Positions 6,434 to 43,906 of a stretch of 64,000 nucleotides of DNA are shown here, in pieces. Below the pieces are notes generated by a model. The model was not told the origin of the DNA, made no database searches, and was given only the letters and a program-made list of their open reading frames with translations. Position numbers and translations under genes: made by a program. Numbering within the stretch: the stretch's first letter is position 1; each line of letters opens with the position of its first letter. This DNA is from Candidatus Nitrosopumilus sediminis. GTDB taxonomy: Archaea > Thermoproteota > Nitrososphaeria > Nitrososphaerales > Nitrosopumilaceae. Location: the NCBI RefSeq assembly GCF_000299395.1, contig NC_018656.1, positions 1-64,000 of the forward strand, read 5' to 3'.

Positions 6434-7554
6434 TGCAAGAATCTGATATACAGTTTCTAGAAAATTCATTTAAAAAATACTATTTTGATCATTTTGATCA
6501 AATCAAAGTTCCCGAAAGAACTTCTGAAAGAGAATTTGGTTATCAAAAATTCAATTCTGGAATGACTCGTCATATAGCAATAAAAGATGATAAAGAATTA
6601 CACCTTATGTTAATTCAAAATATTCCATCTGATGTTTACTGCTCTAATGCATACTATACATTTCCAAATTTGCCTATGAATGAAAAAGATTGGAAAGAGG
6701 CAGATCTAATTTTTGATATAGATGCAAAAGATCTTAATTTATCATGTAGAAAAAGCCATACATTGTCAATTTGCAATGAATGTAGTGAAATTTCAAAAAA
6801 TTCCTCCCAATGTTCAAAATGTAATTCTACTAAGATAGAAAAAAAATCCCTACCATGCAAAAATTGTATTGATGCATCAAAAATAGAAGTCTCAAAATTG
6901 TCTGAAGTTTTAATTGACGATCTTGCTGTAAATAAAGAGAACATTCATGTTTATTTTTCTGGAAATGAAGGATTTCATGTTTATGTGTATAATTCACAAT
7001 TTCAAAAAATTGGATCAAGGGAAAGATCAGAATTAACAGATTATATCTCACTACGTGGAGCAATCCCTGAAACATTTGGAATGAAGAAACTAAAACAAGA
7101 CCGTGCATTATTTCCTGACTTTGATGAAAAAGGATGGAGGGGAAGATTTGCAAAACAAGTTTTTGGTTCAAAATCAAAACGCTCAAAAATAATTACAGAA
7201 TTACTTGCAAATGGTTATGCTTCTTTTCAAAAAACTCTTGATGATGTATCAGAAAATATTGGAGTGAAAATAGATCCTAATGTAACTATGGATATCCATA
7301 GAATTTTTAGATTACCTGGTTCCATTAACAGTAAAAGTGGTCTAACAAAAATTCAGTGTAATGATTTAACAAAATTTGATCCATACACTGAAGCATCTTT
7401 TATCAGTGATGATACGGTAGAGGTTTTTGCAAATTGTCCGATTGAATTTAAATTAAAAAATAAGAAATTTGGACCATACATTAACGAAAAAATAACAATC
7501 CCCACATTTGCAGCAGTTTACATGATTTGTAAAAAACTAGCTAGAATAGCTTGA
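6433..7554 (+). CDS. priS: DNA primase small (catalytic) subunit PriS
   Basis: Catalytic subunit that polymerises primers. The catalytic aspartates lie in ADLIFDIDAKDLN. The SGNEGFHVYV motif is the conserved nucleotide-binding His segment. A zinc-knob region with several Cys residues (CNECS, CSKCNS, CKNC) sits between them. The third acidic region, with MDIHRIFRLPGSINSKSG, is typical. At 373 residues it is normal length. It overlaps priL by one base, so the two subunits are made together. Confidence 0.95.
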   Translation: MQESDIQFLENSFKKYYFDHFDQIKVPERTSEREFGYQKFNSGMTRHIAIKDDKELHLMLIQNIPSDVYCSNAYYTFPNLPMNEKDWKEADLIFDIDAKDLNLSCRKSHTLSICNECSEISKNSSQCSKCNSTKIEKKSLPCKNCIDASKIEVSKLSEVLIDDLAVNKENIHVYFSGNEGFHVYVYNSQFQKIGSRERSELTDYISLRGAIPETFGMKKLKQDRALFPDFDEKGWRGRFAKQVFGSKSKRSKIITELLANGYASFQKTLDDVSENIGVKIDPNVTMDIHRIFRLPGSINSKSGLTKIQCNDLTKFDPYTEASFISDDTVEVFANCPIEFKLKNKKFGPYINEKITIPTFAAVYMICKKLARIA

Positions 7555-7601: not shown

Positions 7602-10457
7602 TTGTATAGCGCCTCTACTGACAAGCAAGCTCCACCTCCTGATGCTGGAAAATACATCAGATTGGGTATTGTTGCAATTATTGGAATTGTAATTTTCGCT
7701 ATGGTAGGCAATCAGGCAGTTATTTTATCCATGAATTTCACTGAATTTGGCGATCAATTTACCAAGCCTCTCTACTACACACTAATTTCTGCAATAATAC
7801 TATCTGCGATTGCTCTAGTTCGAGTAAACATTGCAGCAAGGTCTTCAATCTTCTGGTATGCAATTAGTACTGGAATTGGATTTCTAGGTGGTGGAGGACA
7901 ACAACCAATTTCAAATACCCTAAAAAGTTTTAGAGATTACAAACTATCATCACCACAATTTGTAATATGGCAAATGACCAAGATCCTTCTTTTCGGAGCT
8001 TTCTTTGCAAATATTATGTTTGGATTTGCAGCAATGTCATTTATTGATGGGAACACTTTGGGATTAGAGAATTTACCTTCGTTGTTTACTCTACCCTTTG
8101 TAACTCCTGATAACAATCCAAACTATGCATCAGAAAACGTCGTTCCTATGATTCCTGCCTTAGTAATTTTGATTCCACCATTACTTGCAGCAATTGGACT
8201 TCGTCTAGTTTTGTATGTTGGAATTCACAGAATAATTAATGTAATTACATCTTATCTCCAAGATTCTAATGAAGGCAAGCCACGATATCTAAATTATGTT
8301 TCAACCATTGAAGGAATAATTGGTATAGGTATCATTTGGGCCGGAATTAATTTATTTTTTACTGATCAAATTGATTACAATACACGATATGTAATTGGCG
8401 GTACTCTTGTTATTGGTTTTGCATTAATTGCATTTTCAATAATTGATAGAATTAGAGCACGTGTACTAACTCATATGTTTAAACGAGATGTGTATATTAG
8501 ATTTTTAACAATTGTTGCAATTGCAATTATAGTTACAGGAGTTGTATCAGTAAACAATAGTATTGCAGATGCAAAGAAGATTGAATATTTGGGACCATAC
8601 ACGGCTCAACAAATAGGAGTAAATCGTTATTTAGGTGAATTAAATGATGTTCAAGAAAATACTCATGATGTTCAATTAACATCAGTTTCTGCAAATAATA
8701 TTAAAAATTATGTAAAACAAAATAGTGATGTCCTTGATGTCATTCGAGTTTGGGACTGGGAAGCAGCTTTTGCAAAATTAAAACCTGAGATAGGTCTAAT
8801 TCCATATGTAGACTTTGAAGATAATGATATTCTTCGTTTTAACAATACTTTGTATTGGACAGCCTCAATGAAGCCAATTTTACCAACCTCTGTCAGCCTT
8901 GAAAATAGATGGTATAATGAACATCTAGTATACACTCACGTACCTGATGGATTTCTTACTTTAGAAGCAACTGATGGACAAATTGTCGATAGTGGCGAAT
9001 TCTTCAAACAAAGAGAAATTTACTATGGTGAGGGTGGATTATTTGAGCAAACTTGGTCTGGTTATCCTAAATCACGAGGTGATACTAGTGCAGAGCTTGG
9101 AGGAGTATCTTATTCAGGATTAGGTGGATTAGATGTTCCACCACCATTGAGCTGGATATTTGAGCCAAACTTTTTGCTTTCATTTCCAGGCGAACCAGTA
9201 CATATCATGAGATACAAAGATGTCCATGACAGAATGGAAACTCTGTATCCATACTTTCTATATGATTTGTTTGGAAAAGAATTGGATTCACTCCCTGTAA
9301 CTGATGGAGAAAATTCTTATTGGTTAATTCCATTAATTATTGGATTTGATACCGGTGATGTTCCATGGTCTGTTGGAAATCCATATTTGCGTTTGGTAGG
9401 TTATGCACTGGTTGATTCTTACAATGGTGATATTCAATTATTAAAAACTGGAGATGATTTCTTTACTGAAATGTTTGCTAGTCAATATTCTGAACAATTC
9501 AAACCTATGCCGGCATGGTTAGAAGAACAAATACGATATCCTGTTGAACTGTTCAATTGGAAAACCGAGATGTATAACATCTACCATGTAACTAATGTAG
9601 AGACATTTATTCAAGCTAACGAATTTTATGAAATACCTCGTGGACTTGACACCTATTATGTTGAAGCAAAACCTCCTGGATTTGATCAAACAGAATTCAT
9701 AGGATTGCTCTCATTGGAATTACGAGGTTCTCAAGGTAGAAATCTTGCAGGATATATGGTAGTAGAGAATGATCTTACTAATCTCGGAGACATGCAATTT
9801 TATGAAGTTCCATTAAACTCTACAACTAAATTAATTGGCCCTACAGCAGTTAGAGAAGCCCTTGATAGAGATCCAGAATTTGCTCAACTAAAGACCCTCT
9901 TGAGAAATCCAAGAATCGGTGATAATATTTTATACCGTGTAGGTGATCATGATATTTACTTTATTCCTGTTTATACTGCAGGTGCTGGTGGAGTTGTTGC
10001 TCAATTAGGAACAATTGCAGCAGTTGGTGCTGCATTTAATGGAGAATATTTCGTTGGATTAGGTGAAACTCAAGAAAAAGCATTTGAAGCGTATTTGAAG
10101 AAGGTTTCTGGTGTAGCATCTACAACAACTACAGCTGATGATAATTATGTAGAATTAATTAGAAGTGACAGAATTGATATTATCAAGTCATTATTTGAAA
10201 CAAACGGAATTTCTGTTTCTGAACCCACATCCATTCAAATTCCACTTTCATTTAATGAAGGAGAAATATTTTTCTTTACTGAAAGTGATCGTGCAGATGC
10301 CGAAGAATTCTTGCTTGAATTTATAGATGACTTTGTGAAACCACGTAGTGATAGAGTCTTCATGTGGCAAGAGGATACAAATCTCAATATTGGAACTGTG
10401 TTTGTAAAAGATGGACTTCCTGAGATACATTATGTCTCAATTGAGGTAGGCAACTAA
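7602..10457 (+). CDS. UPF0182 (COG1615) family large membrane protein
   Basis: Integral membrane protein of unknown function, 951 residues. The N-terminal third holds about seven hydrophobic segments (first at residues 21-41). A long extracytoplasmic part follows with family landmarks: VHIMRYKDVHDRMETLYPYF, a region ending in PAWLEEQIRYPVELFNWKTEMYNIYHVT, and a Gly/Ala-rich stretch near residues 790-805. Translation probably begins on TTG at 7602; no ATG lies before the first membrane segment. The stop codon directly abuts the TTG of the next gene, so the two are likely co-expressed. The family is widespread in actinobacteria and some archaea, and no activity is established to my knowledge. 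Confidence 0.85.
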   Translation: MYSASTDKQAPPPDAGKYIRLGIVAIIGIVIFAMVGNQAVILSMNFTEFGDQFTKPLYYTLISAIILSAIALVRVNIAARSSIFWYAISTGIGFLGGGGQQPISNTLKSFRDYKLSSPQFVIWQMTKILLFGAFFANIMFGFAAMSFIDGNTLGLENLPSLFTLPFVTPDNNPNYASENVVPMIPALVILIPPLLAAIGLRLVLYVGIHRIINVITSYLQDSNEGKPRYLNYVSTIEGIIGIGIIWAGINLFFTDQIDYNTRYVIGGTLVIGFALIAFSIIDRIRARVLTHMFKRDVYIRFLTIVAIAIIVTGVVSVNNSIADAKKIEYLGPYTAQQIGVNRYLGELNDVQENTHDVQLTSVSANNIKNYVKQNSDVLDVIRVWDWEAAFAKLKPEIGLIPYVDFEDNDILRFNNTLYWTASMKPILPTSVSLENRWYNEHLVYTHVPDGFLTLEATDGQIVDSGEFFKQREIYYGEGGLFEQTWSGYPKSRGDTSAELGGVSYSGLGGLDVPPPLSWIFEPNFLLSFPGEPVHIMRYKDVHDRMETLYPYFLYDLFGKELDSLPVTDGENSYWLIPLIIGFDTGDVPWSVGNPYLRLVGYALVDSYNGDIQLLKTGDDFFTEMFASQYSEQFKPMPAWLEEQIRYPVELFNWKTEMYNIYHVTNVETFIQANEFYEIPRGLDTYYVEAKPPGFDQTEFIGLLSLELRGSQGRNLAGYMVVENDLTNLGDMQFYEVPLNSTTKLIGPTAVREALDRDPEFAQLKTLLRNPRIGDNILYRVGDHDIYFIPVYTAGAGGVVAQLGTIAAVGAAFNGEYFVGLGETQEKAFEAYLKKVSGVASTTTTADDNYVELIRSDRIDIIKSLFETNGISVSEPTSIQIPLSFNEGEIFFFTESDRADAEEFLLEFIDDFVKPRSDRVFMWQEDTNLNIGTVFVKDGLPEIHYVSIEVGN

Positions 10458-11997: not shown

Positions 11998-12071
11998 TGC
12001 GGAGTGCGGGATTTGAACCCGCGGCCTTCAGCTTGGGAAGCTGACGTCATACCAGACTAAACTAACTCCGC
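11998..12071 (-). tRNA. tRNA-Gly(CCC)
   Basis: On the minus strand the acceptor stem is GCGGAGT/ACTCCGC, the T arm GCGGG-TTCAAAT-CCCGC, and the anticodon stem TCAGC/GCTGA with loop TTCCCAA. The anticodon is CCC, which reads GGG. The discriminator is A and CCA is not encoded. There is no intron. The 3' end abuts the stop codon of the TPR gene at 11997. Confidence 0.95.
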
Positions 12072-26907: not shown

Positions 26908-27027
26908 ATGGCAGGAATTTTTGATTCAATACCAATTATCACTGTAGCTTTATTTGCACTTGGCTTAGTTGGTGTAATTGTTTATGAAAGAACAAGATCA
27001 AATGAACCAGTTGAATCCAACTCTTGA
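26908..27027 (+). CDS. Single-pass membrane microprotein, 39 aa
   Basis: Encodes MAGIFDSIPIITVALFALGL followed by VGVIVYERTRSNEPVESNS. It has one membrane segment (about residues 9-26), a short external head and a charged tail. An ATG with a purine-rich AAAG before it starts 22 bp after the RadB-like gene. The last 26 bp overlap the likely start of the lhr gene in another frame. No family is recognised. The hydrophobic core and start context make it likely real, but this is not proven. Confidence 0.55.
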   Translation: MAGIFDSIPIITVALFALGLVGVIVYERTRSNEPVESNS

Positions 27028-29732
27028 TTCTTTATTTGGAAAATTTGGATTTTCTAAACTAACTGAAATTCAGAAAAAAGCATCACCAATAATTTTACAA
27101 AAGAAAGATTGCCTTGTAATTGCACCAACGGGTTCCGGAAAAACTGAGTGCTCTATAATACCAATTTTTTCACTTTTAAAAAACTCTAAAAAAGATAAAA
27201 AAATTAAAGCTCTTTACATTACACCACTAAGGGCATTAAATAGAGATGTATTTAGAAGAATTACAAAATATGCACATGAAAATCAATTAACAATTGAAAT
27301 TCGCCACGGAGACACTAGTCAAAAAGATAGAAAAAAGATTACTGAGAATCCTCCGGATATTCTAATTACTACTCCTGAAACATTGGTGATTCTTTTAACA
27401 CAAGCCAAAATGCTAAATGCATTATCTGAGTTGGAATGGATTGTAATTGATGAAGTCCATGAATTATTATCTAGTGAGCGAGGTTCTCAACTGGCATTAA
27501 GTATTGAAAGGTTAGAATTAAACTCAAAATATCATCTCTCAAAAGTTGGATTATCTGCAACTGTTGGAAATTTTAATGAAGCAGGAAAATTTGTTGTAGG
27601 AACCAAGCGAAAATGTGAGATAATTAGAGATACTTCTGTAAGAAAATATGATGTGGAAATAAAATATGTTGATGGAACAATTTCAGATGTAGCAGAAAAA
27701 ATCATTGAACATGTAATGGAAATTGATTTAGATTCTCCTATTCTTCTTTTTACTAATACTAGAGGAGAAGCTGAATTCTTAGCATCAATATTAAAAGAAA
27801 AGTCATCCATTCCTGTTGAATTACATCATGGCTCTCTTTCAAAAGAAGTTAGAGAAGAAACAGAGCTAACTTTGCGTAAGGGAAAACATGGTATTGTCGT
27901 GTGTACCTCTTCACTAGAATTGGGATTAGATATTGGTTCAGTTGAATTAGTAATCCATTATGGATCTCCAAGACAAGTTTCAAAATTTGTACAAAGAATA
28001 GGTAGAAGTAAACATAATCGAGATGAATCAGCACAAGGTTTGATTATCACAAATAATCCTGATGATGAATTTGAAGCACGAGCAATTCTTGAACGAATTC
28101 AAGAAGGCTCTATTGAAGAACAAAAAATTCATGATGGTTCCCTTGATGTATTAGCGCATCATTTAGTTGGATTATCCATGCAAATTGGTGAAATTTCAGT
28201 AGACCAGGCTTTTGAATTAGTAACAAAAGCATATCCTTTTAGAAATTTAAAAATTAATGATCTAATAAATGTCTTGGATTTACTTGATTCGAACTATCTG
28301 ATATTTTTTGACAGAACAAAAATGACTTTTTGGAAAAAAGGCCGTTCATTCAAATACTATTTTGAAAATCTTTCAACCATCCCTGATATTCTTAAATTCA
28401 AAGTTTTTGATAGTGTCGGAAAAAAAATTATTGGATCTTTGGATCAAAGATTTGTAGGTGATTTTGGGGATTCTGGAAATATTTTTGTGTTAAAAGGCTC
28501 TCAATGGAGAATCCTTAATGTTGATGAAAAATCATTCAGTGTAAATGTTGAACCTTTCAGAGGAGGTGGAATCACTGTACCGTATTGGGAAGGAGAAAAT
28601 ATTCCAATTGACTATAAAACTGCGCGTAAAGTAGGAAATTTTCGTAGTAAAGTTAAGAATGGAAATTTTACACTAGTTAACAAAATTATTGAAAAATTAA
28701 ATTTTGATGTGATTCCTGATGAAAATAATATTGTAATTGAATCAAATAGATCCCAAGGTTCAATCGTAATTCATTCTTGTTTAGGAAGTAAAATCAATTC
28801 TACATTAGCGACATTACTCTCTTCAATGTTATCTTCAATGTTAGGCTCCATAATTGATTCCCGCTCTGATGGCTATAGAATTGTTTTATCTTCCAGAGCC
28901 AGAATTTCAGAAAAACTATTCATGGAAGTTCTAAAAGATGATTATGATTTACAATCTATAATCTATAATCAGTGCATCTTTAACGGGAACTCATAATGTT
29001 AATTGGAGAACATGGTGTGTTGCAAAAAAATTTGGTGTTGTTGGTCGAGGTGCAATATATGAAAGAAAATCTGCTCGATTTTTATATGAACGATATTCTA
29101 AAACAGCGCTTGTACATGAAGCTCTTCGTGAATTGTTTCATGACAAATATGATCTCAAAAATTCCGAAATAATTCTAAAAAAGATCAAAGATGATGAAAT
29201 TCATGTCACTTGGTTGGAAATTGATCAGTTTTCAAAATTAGCAGAGCCTATTTTAGATCATACTGCAAAATATTATTCCTCACCTGCAAATCTTGACAAA
29301 GGAATACTTGATCTAGTTAAAGCTAGACTTGAAAAAACAAAACATCGTCTGATTTGTGCTCGATGTGGAAAATGGGAACGTGTATTTCAAACATTTGAAG
29401 TAAAAAATTTACTAGTATGTCCATATTGTAAAGCGAGACAAATTACCGCAACATATTATTCTGATTACGATTTACCCAAAATTATAAGAAAAAAACATGA
29501 TGGAAAAAAACTATCTCCAGATGAAAAACATAAATTTGATCGTGCCTGGAAAGTTGCCTCTTTAGTTGAAAATTTCGGTAAAATTGCTATTACTGTAATA
29601 TCCGGATATGGTGTTGGTGCAGACACAGCAGCAAGAATCTTGAGAAATATGATTGATGAAGAGCATTTGTTCAAACAAATCTATGAGGCAGAAAGACAGT
29701 ATGTTGTAACTAGAGGTTTTTGGGATTCTTAG
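27002..29732 (+). pseudogene. lhr: Lhr-type superfamily 2 helicase, split by a 7-bp tandem duplication
   Basis: ATP-dependent helicase of the archaeal Lhr-core group, involved in DNA repair or RNA/DNA hybrid unwinding. The first frame (27002-28996) carries Walker A APTGSGKTE, Walker B box DEVHELLSSERGSQLA, motif III GLSATVG, and motif VI QRIGRSKHNRDES. The rest lies in the +1 frame from about 28962 to 29732. It starts SIISASLTGTHNVNWRTW and includes a C-terminal zinc ribbon (CARC...CPYC). Removing one 7-bp unit at 28953-28970 restores a single frame of 907 codons, the usual Lhr-core length. It may be a true pseudogene, a phase-variable gene or a sequence error. I use the ATG at 27002; ATGs at 26978 and 26984 are possible. 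Confidence 0.9.
28953..28970 (+). repeat. 7-bp tandem repeat that causes the lhr frame change
   Basis: AATCTATAATCTATAATC has period 7 (unit AATCTAT, about 2.6 copies). With one unit removed, the reading continues LQSIISASLTGTHNVNWR without a stop. With it, the first frame ends after LQSIIYNQCIFNGNS. Confidence 0.95.
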
Positions 29733-33779: not shown

Positions 33780-33846
33780 GATACCTAATTTCAGGAAAAC
33801 TATCTATGTTATATTCGTGTTACAAAACTATTTTTTATTAAAAAAG

Positions 33847-33919
33847 TAGCCCGGCCCAGACTCGAACTGGGGTCAAAGGCTTCAAAGGCCTCTATGCTTG
33901 ACCGCTACACTACCGGGCT
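33847..33919 (-). tRNA. tRNA-Gln(TTG)
   Basis: On the minus strand the acceptor stem is AGCCCGG/CCGGGCT with discriminator A, the T arm CCCAG-TTCGAGT-CTGGG, and the anticodon stem GAGGC/GCCTT with loop CTTTGAA. The anticodon is TTG. The A1-T72 first pair is what archaeal GatDE-dependent tRNA-Gln shows. No intron and no encoded CCA. Confidence 0.94.
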
Positions 33920-40692: not shown

Positions 40693-42604
40693 TTAGGTCA
40701 TATTTTCTATTTTCTTCTTGATGTTTTTTAAAAGAATATTGTTAATTGTTTCACCAGAAGCCTTACCTCTTAATTCTTTCATAACAATTCCCATTAATGG
40801 TCCAATAGCTCTTTCCTTTTGATTTTTAATAATTTCATTATTATTTTCTACAATATCTCCAATAATTTTTTCTAGATCATCTTCATTCACAGATTGAATT
40901 GAAGTATTTTTTATAGCTTGTTCTACCGTCTTTGATTTCCCAGCCATTATGTTTTCAAATATTATTTCAATAGATTCTTTTGCAATTTTCCCTTCTTCCA
41001 ATAACTGAAACAATTTGAAAATTTCTTGATTCTTTAATAAATTTGGATCTAGTCCACTTCTTTCCAAATTTGTAATTGATGAACAAAGTATTGATGCAAC
41101 AAATGTAGGATTGATGTTAATATCTTCAATAATTTTTTCAAATAGTTCAATATATCGTGAATCAAAAATTTGTTCTGCAAGTTGAGGATTAATTTTATAT
41201 TTTGTTTCCAGTTCTTTTATAGAATCATCCCAAGATTTTGGTATTTTATTTTCAGCTTCTGATAATTCTTCTTTCGTAATAATTATTGGTGGAATATCTG
41301 TTTCAGGATACATTCTTGCAGCTCCTGGTCTTGGTCGAAGAAATTTTGTTTCTCCTGATTGAGTAGCTAATCTGGTATCAATTGGAATGCCTTTATCTCT
41401 AATATGTTCAATTCTTAAAATAATTTGTTCTACAATTGTATGCATTTTTTCTTGAGGTGATGCCAAAATTAAAAATGCATCATTTTCTTTGATTTCTGCA
41501 AATTTCTTCAATTTTTCTAAATCTGATTCCTCAATTCCATAATTGGGTAATTCATCTGAATGAAATACTCCACCTATTCCAAAAAATCTTACCAATTCTG
41601 CTACTTCCTTTCCTAATCTGATGCCTTCATAAGGTGAAAATCCGAACATTCCAGCCATGTTTTTAAAAGACACTGCAAGAATTTTCTGATTTTTCTTTAT
41701 GGCATTTTGAATAATTTTTGATTTACATTTTGAAAATAACTCTGTAATGTCTTTTTTGTCTTCATTAGTAAATTTCCAATCTTTTTCTTGAATTTTTTTT
41801 GAAATTACTAACAAACCATGCTGTCTTTTAGCTTCATATTCAACAACTTTTTCTAATTGATCTAATTGCTGTACTCCTTTTACTTCAATTACTATGCCCC
41901 CCTCCATCTTTAATTGAAACATTAACATCTTGTCTAATTGATCCTAAACCTCGTTTTACTTTTTTTGTACTTCTCAAAATTCTTCCTAAAGATAATGCAA
42001 TTTTTTTAATCTCTGTTAATTCTGCTTCAAAAGGTTCTGTTGCAATTTCAACTAATGGGACCCCCAATCGTTCTAGACCAAATTTTCTAATTGATCCTTC
42101 TTCACCCAATATTTTTGCAGCATCTTCTTCTAGACAAATTGACTGAATTCCTATCTTTACATCTCCTACATTATAAAATCCACCTTGTGAAATTAACATA
42201 GTTCGTTGAAATCCAGTTGTATTGGAACCATCAATTACTGTTTTTCTCATAGGATAGATTTCACTGAAAACATTTGATTTTAAAGCAGAAGAAATTATTA
42301 AAGCAATTCTTCTTGCATCTTTATCCAATTCATGTGGAGGTTCTTCATCTTGTTCTACTAAACAACTGCTTTCATGATTTGCATAATACATTATTGTTTT
42401 AGATTTTGTACTTTCAAATAATGCAGCAGGATCAAATTCTCCTAATTCACTTTTAGATGCTCGTAATTTTCTTTGGAATTTAGTCGAATACTCATCTGAT
42501 TCAATAGGTGTACAATTACAAAATAATTTTTTATTGGTTGCAAGCTGTTGATGAATTTCTAATCCTACTTTAACACCTACATCTTTAATTGAAAATTCCT
42601 TCAT
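40693..42604 (-). pseudogene. gatE: Glutamyl-tRNA(Gln) amidotransferase subunit E, interrupted by a one-base frameshift
   Basis: GatE binds Glu-tRNA(Gln) and phosphorylates the glutamate for amidation with ammonia from GatD. The N-terminal part (42604 to 41885) has GVKVGLEIHQQLATNKKLFC and reaches SIRQDVNVSIKDGGG. The C-terminal part continues in the +1 frame (IEVKGVQQLDQLEKVVEYEA onward) with the AspRS-like insert and helical tail. The break is in six Gs on the coding strand (C tract at 41897-41902). With five Gs the frame runs 636 codons, normal for GatE. Archaea depend on GatDE for Gln-tRNA, so a true loss is unlikely. A sequence error or ribosomal slippage is the better explanation. Confidence 0.93.
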
Positions 42605-42616
42605 ATTGATCCCTGA

Positions 42617-43906
42617 TTATATTGAAAATTCAGATGCAATTCTATTAAGCATGATTTCTTTAATTTCATCAAGATTTTCAGTGTTTCCAGTAACCCACAT
42701 TGCTTTGACTAATGCGACTTCTGGAATCATGTTTTCTAAAGGAATTATGCCTAAATCGAGTAAATCTCTACCACTTTCATAAACTGTCATTCTTACTCTG
42801 CCATCAATACATTGAGAAGTCATTCCCATAAAGATGCCTTTTTCATTTGCAATTTTTACTACTGAATACATATTTTTTCCAATATGTCCTAATCCTGTAC
42901 CTTCAAAAATTATTGCTTTATAATTAGAATCTATGATATTTTTTAACAAAGATGGATTATATCCTGGATGATACTTTACTAATGCAACTTTTTCATTTAT
43001 TTTTATTTTAGGTTTAAATTCTGTAGTTGTAAAAAAATCTTCTTTCATATTTTTATAAATTTCATTATTAACAATTAAAAATGCAGGATCATCTCCGACT
43101 GTTTGGAATGCCCCTCTTTTACTTGTATGATTTTTTCTTACTCTTGTACCTATATGACATGCAATCGTTTCATCATTTTCATCTTGATGCATAACAACGT
43201 AGATGCCATTTGTTTTACATTCAGTTAGAAATTTTGTAGCTCCAATTAGATTTAATGCTGCATCTGACGATGCCCGATCTGATGATCTTTGTGAACCTAC
43301 TAATGCTATTGGTATTGGAAAACCTGAAAGTGAAAAAGAAAGATAAGATGATGTATAATGCATGGTATCTGTTCCATGTGCAATAATAATTCCCGAATAC
43401 TCTGATTTAGAATATTCTTTTATTGTTTCAGCAATTTTCAACCAATGTTCAGGCATTATGTTTTCTGAATATTCTGAAAATAGTACTTTTGTGTCTATGT
43501 TTGCAATTTTTGCAAGTTCTGGAACAGACGAATTCAATTCTTCAGCAGTTAATATTGGCGTAACTGCACCCGTTCTATAATCAATTTTACTTGCAATTGT
43601 ACCTCCTGTTGACAATAGTAGGATATTTGGCAAGGCCTTGTCTTTTTCAACCCTTTCATTTTTTTCTATTATTTTTTCTAAAGATGGATTTTTTTCAATC
43701 TTTTCAATTTTTGTAATTTCTAAACCAATATTGTATCCGCTCTTTAATTTTAAAACAATATGTTTGTCATCACCGTGTTCATATCTGGGCATAATTATGC
43801 CTGAATATGTGATATCAGCTAAAATTTTTACAGAATCCCCGACTGAAACTTGGTTAGTTTTAAGAAATTCTAATGATTTTCCAACGTAGCCTGTATATTC
43901 TGACAT
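42617..43906 (-). CDS. gatD: Glutamyl-tRNA(Gln) amidotransferase subunit D
   Basis: Asparaginase-like subunit that supplies ammonia to GatE. The N-terminal small barrel domain is followed by the asparaginase core with LLLSTGGTIASKIDYRTGAV (catalytic Thr), a second Thr/Asp motif IIIAHGTDTMHYTSSY, and VGSQRSSDRASSDAALNL. At 429 residues it is normal. It lies 12 bp upstream of gatE on the same strand, so the two subunits form an operon. Confidence 0.96.
   Translation of the reverse strand: MSEYTGYVGKSLEFLKTNQVSVGDSVKILADITYSGIIMPRYEHGDDKHIVLKLKSGYNIGLEITKIEKIEKNPSLEKIIEKNERVEKDKALPNILLLSTGGTIASKIDYRTGAVTPILTAEELNSSVPELAKIANIDTKVLFSEYSENIMPEHWLKIAETIKEYSKSEYSGIIIAHGTDTMHYTSSYLSFSLSGFPIPIALVGSQRSSDRASSDAALNLIGATKFLTECKTNGIYVVMHQDENDETIACHIGTRVRKNHTSKRGAFQTVGDDPAFLIVNNEIYKNMKEDFFTTTEFKPKIKINEKVALVKYHPGYNPSLLKNIIDSNYKAIIFEGTGLGHIGKNMYSVVKIANEKGIFMGMTSQCIDGRVRMTVYESGRDLLDLGIIPLENMIPEVALVKAMWVTGNTENLDEIKEIMLNRIASEFSI

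Follow-up and report, generated by a model that had tools for sequence, protein, structure and literature searches.

The gatE frame break

The question raised by this locus is whether gatE, which lies in two reading frames in the deposited genome of Candidatus Nitrosopumilus sediminis, is broken in the living organism or only in its assembled sequence. The gene occupies the minus strand (42604-40693) in the window, the stretch of 64,000 nucleotides at the start of contig NC_018656.1 that was analysed, and its frame switches at a tract of exactly six Gs (41902-41897; plus-strand C6). The 5' part, up to a premature stop (41885..42604), has 239 amino acids, ends in ...VNVSIKDGGGHSN and is GatE-like to about residue 236 (positions 2-235 of NF003107 in a model scan). 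The 3' part (40693..41913) is in another frame, within an open reading frame (41928-40693) that matches GatE over its last ~400 codons and has an in-frame ATG at 41928. Directly upstream of the gatE start at 42604 is an intact open reading frame of 429 amino acids (42617..43906, minus strand), which is gatD to judge from its own sequence and the gatDE gene order rather than from a family-library scan.

The minus strand reads AAA GAT GGA GGG GGG CAT AGT AAT TGA across the break, with the stop at 41885. Together, the two pieces cover the GatE model TIGR00134 from end to end, with 286.6 bits for model positions 4-233 and 334.2 bits for positions 230-621, the latter exceeding the cut-off of 319.55. 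The match is thus whole-length, divided between two frames in place of a single open reading frame, and nothing is absent except the frame. Skipping one base joins the halves through DGGGIVIEVKG, and a nucleotide alignment to two relatives has a lone inserted base, at the G tract. The skipped base may be one of the Gs or the next C, as GGG and GGC both encode glycine and the protein is the same; which of them is the extra base is therefore not decidable from the sequence alone. The sequence, the model match and the alignment all agree with the first-pass annotation that both halves are present and that one extra base stands at the G6 tract. The gene has the features of the GatE of archaeal GatDE (TIGR00134/NF003107), that is, the end-to-end match, an adjoining gatD, and an archaeal glutamyl-tRNA synthetase (GluRS) and tRNA-Gln in the genome, and differs only in the one-base break of the deposited sequence.

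gatE in related genomes

Most of the 60 relatives have a single intact gatE. In all 30 of those in which the codons were read directly, the gene is in frame at the site of the G tract and the codons vary, and no conserved slippery tract was found there in these 30 other genomes. None of the relatives has gatE split at the G tract, partial matches having been checked: the gene lacks an internal stretch in G019 and runs off contig ends in G016 and G020, and a frame-broken gatE occurs in a single relative, the Nitrosopumilus assembly G023 (C3:170501-172800), where the break is further downstream, at the A7 run in ATCTCAAAAAAATACAAG. The break studied here falls within the conserved motif QDVNVSI..GG..VEVKG. 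The 3' half is 87% identical to the GatE of G007 over 41913-40699. A search of genome contigs gave matches in other species only, with 87% protein identity at best in the 3' half and none from another assembly of the strain, and the gatE flanks with a different G count had no match in viral contigs.

These comparisons bear on the idea that the tract is real and that ribosomes produce GatE by slipping +1 on GGG-GGG-C, with tRNA-Gly(CCC) in the P site, or from transcripts lacking one G. The heptamer would permit re-pairing of that tRNA one base on, and the tRNA is encoded at 11998-12071, as had been reported earlier. As in programmed +1 frameshifting (e.g., bacterial prfB) or transcriptional slippage, the junction has a repeated base, and a shift of frame would yield a single polypeptide. 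In contrast to those systems, the gatE site is not conserved, and relatives have varied in-frame codons there. A six-base G run is also short for transcriptional slippage. Neither programmed frameshifting nor transcript slippage gained any positive support at gatE, and we regard both as very improbable; a +1 recoding peculiar to this strain, ribosomal or transcriptional, that sustains an essential amidotransferase subunit is just as hard to credit.

Essentiality and possible backup enzymes

The genome is a single contig of 1,690,905 bases, assigned to Nitrosopumilus and 99.6% complete. A genome-wide scan with TIGR00134 found no second gatE, the sole further matches being to GatB, and no glutaminyl-tRNA synthetase (GlnRS) scored over its model cut-off anywhere in the genome, whereas one archaeal GluRS did. 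A tRNA-Gln is present at 33846-33919. All known archaea are without GlnRS and make Gln-tRNA by way of GatDE, and the archaeal GatCAB is specific for Asp-tRNA(Asn) and does not serve Glu-tRNA(Gln) (PMC9499178). Loss of gatE should therefore be lethal, and the essentiality argument of the first-pass annotation, which would have been changed by a second gatE or a GlnRS elsewhere, stands as it was. The failure to find an alternative amidotransferase source for Glu-tRNA(Gln) in the genome also speaks for slippage.

The same facts weigh on the possibility that gatE is a true, recent pseudogene, or that its two pieces are separately translated and work together. Both pieces are long, well-conserved open frames, and the 3' frame offers an ATG at 41928; but the break is inside a conserved motif, no relative is split at the site, no replacement enzyme was found, GatCAB does not act on Glu-tRNA(Gln) (PMC9499178), and gatB is broken too. 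In gatB, codons 1-58 and the other 417 are in different frames, with an A7 run between them where G007 has A6. No asparaginyl-tRNA synthetase (AsnRS) over the cut-off was found in the genome either, the two AsnRS-like matches both scoring as aspartate--tRNA(Asn) ligase. With gatB and gatE both broken and no GlnRS or AsnRS over the cut-off, true loss would block the synthesis of both Gln-tRNA and Asn-tRNA and leave no known route to either. That gatB is broken alike makes true loss of gatE still less likely, and a pseudogene or a two-piece enzyme is accordingly given very little credence.

The two genes that score as aspartate--tRNA(Asn) ligase, of the non-discriminating type, lie at genome positions 1031441-1032685 and 792145-793386, and one of them may serve another role.

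Frame breaks elsewhere in the assembly

The open frames of two relatives, G036 and G007, each a single contig, were compared by tblastn with this genome, using about 584 kb of it and about 540 kb from each relative. Some 357 orthologues were found, covering about 275 kb of coding sequence, and seven of these (2.0%) are clearly frame-broken, which extrapolates, very roughly, to 40 genes genome-wide. The broken genes were named by scanning their pieces, or the proteins of the relatives, against NCBIfam. Besides the extra base in gatE, there is an extra base in gatB (A7, genome 788128) and in a gene for an acetate-CoA-ligase-like enzyme (beside A7, genome 784957), and a missing base in genes for a sensor histidine kinase (A7, genome 949131), a Hef-type helicase (A7, genome 884460) and a type II GAPDH (A8, genome 745968). 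The seventh gene, on the plus strand of the window (26984..29729), encodes a Lhr-type ATP-dependent helicase (NF010338) and is broken at about 28955, as seen by tblastn and alignment with two relatives. Both references flagged six of these breaks; that in gatB was picked up with only one of them, and nucleotide alignment with each of the two then confirmed it.

Six of the seven breaks are thus in or beside homopolymers of six to eight bases, and their signs are mixed (three extra, three missing). As a control, G036 and G007 were compared with each other, which gave one reproducible break per genome over about 303 kb, none of them at a long homopolymer; the excess over these related assemblies (seven vs one and one) has a one-sided p of ~0.006. 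Only some 6.8% of bases are within 5 nt of a run of six or more, so that six of seven breaks there, in a set chosen by judgement, corresponds to a binomial p of ~7e-7, and adding three weaker candidates as non-homopolymer cases (six of ten) gives ~2e-5. Mixed signs with a homopolymer excess is the pattern of homopolymer miscalling. It is not what would be expected from the decay of dispensable genes or from a single slippage mechanism, which would not explain why five or more unrelated genes are broken at A runs, some by an extra and others by a missing base. Not all tracts of the gatE kind are misread in the assembly, since three further G/C runs of this length in the window sit inside long open frames.

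A third alternative is that the population is mixed at the tract, with five and six Gs, and that the allele with the broken frame went into the consensus. Homopolymers are prone to mutation and the DNA came from an enrichment rather than a clonal culture, but the breaks at homopolymers in further housekeeping genes would be left unexplained, and this seems the least probable of the alternatives.

Sequencing source and the most probable explanation

The AR enrichment culture was sequenced on the 454 GS-FLX Titanium platform to about 34x and assembled with Newbler 2.3 (PMC4010524). We infer from the genus and the urease gene that this is Ca. Nitrosopumilus sediminis AR2, and take its deposited sequence to derive from those 454/Newbler data. 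The urease alpha subunit gene is intact in the genome; a urease operon has been described for AR2 (PMC4010524), which has also been noted, along with one other genome, for carrying genes for N-methylhydantoinase as well as urease (PMC7848895). Direct comparison of a 454 assembly revealed homopolymer errors in 2.13-2.78% of genes, mostly in A/T rather than G/C runs and more commonly in low-G+C DNA (PMC3277595), and the rate of about 2.0% seen here matches. The likeness to these published errors extends to the one-base indels of both signs, the prevalence of A/T runs and the low G+C of the genome. The gatE insertion is itself a one-base indel in a homopolymer by alignment with two relatives. It differs in affecting a G tract, whereas published 454 errors favour A/T runs, and is to that extent of a less common kind.

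With other conserved genes broken alike at homopolymers and the relatives unbroken at the site, the gatE frameshift is, with high confidence, a one-base homopolymer error of the assembly. A G5 tract would have been overcalled as G6, or a base at the edge of the tract miscalled, and in the living organism gatE is most likely a normal gene of about 637 codons without interruption, downstream of gatD, the predicted product being the GatDE subunit that amidates Glu-tRNA(Gln). The earlier preference for a base-calling error over slippage is thus borne out by the further homopolymer breaks, the 454-like rate and the relatives without a slippery site. The break is almost certainly ordinary and not a real feature, and its only importance is as a warning: in a genome that serves as a species reference, several housekeeping genes appear broken through homopolymer errors, and this assembly by itself should not be relied on for claims that a gene is lost or recoded.

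Some further observations were made in the survey of frame breaks. Apparent breaks near 149365 and 137057 were dropped for weak alignment, each with one reference only, as was a 131-aa "broken" open reading frame (952631-953025) that, on reading the sequence, lies antisense over the 3' end of the 16S rRNA and the next spacer. The breaks in gatB and in the gene for the acetate-CoA-ligase-like enzyme are about 3.2 kb apart (10119-10138 and 6950-6965 within genome 778001-798000). The break in the Lhr-type helicase gene is a 7-base tandem repeat, TCTATAA x2 (plus strand, window 28950-28963), in place of which two relatives have no repeat; it is atypical of a homopolymer error, and either a genuine slippage mutation or a fault of the assembly could account for it.
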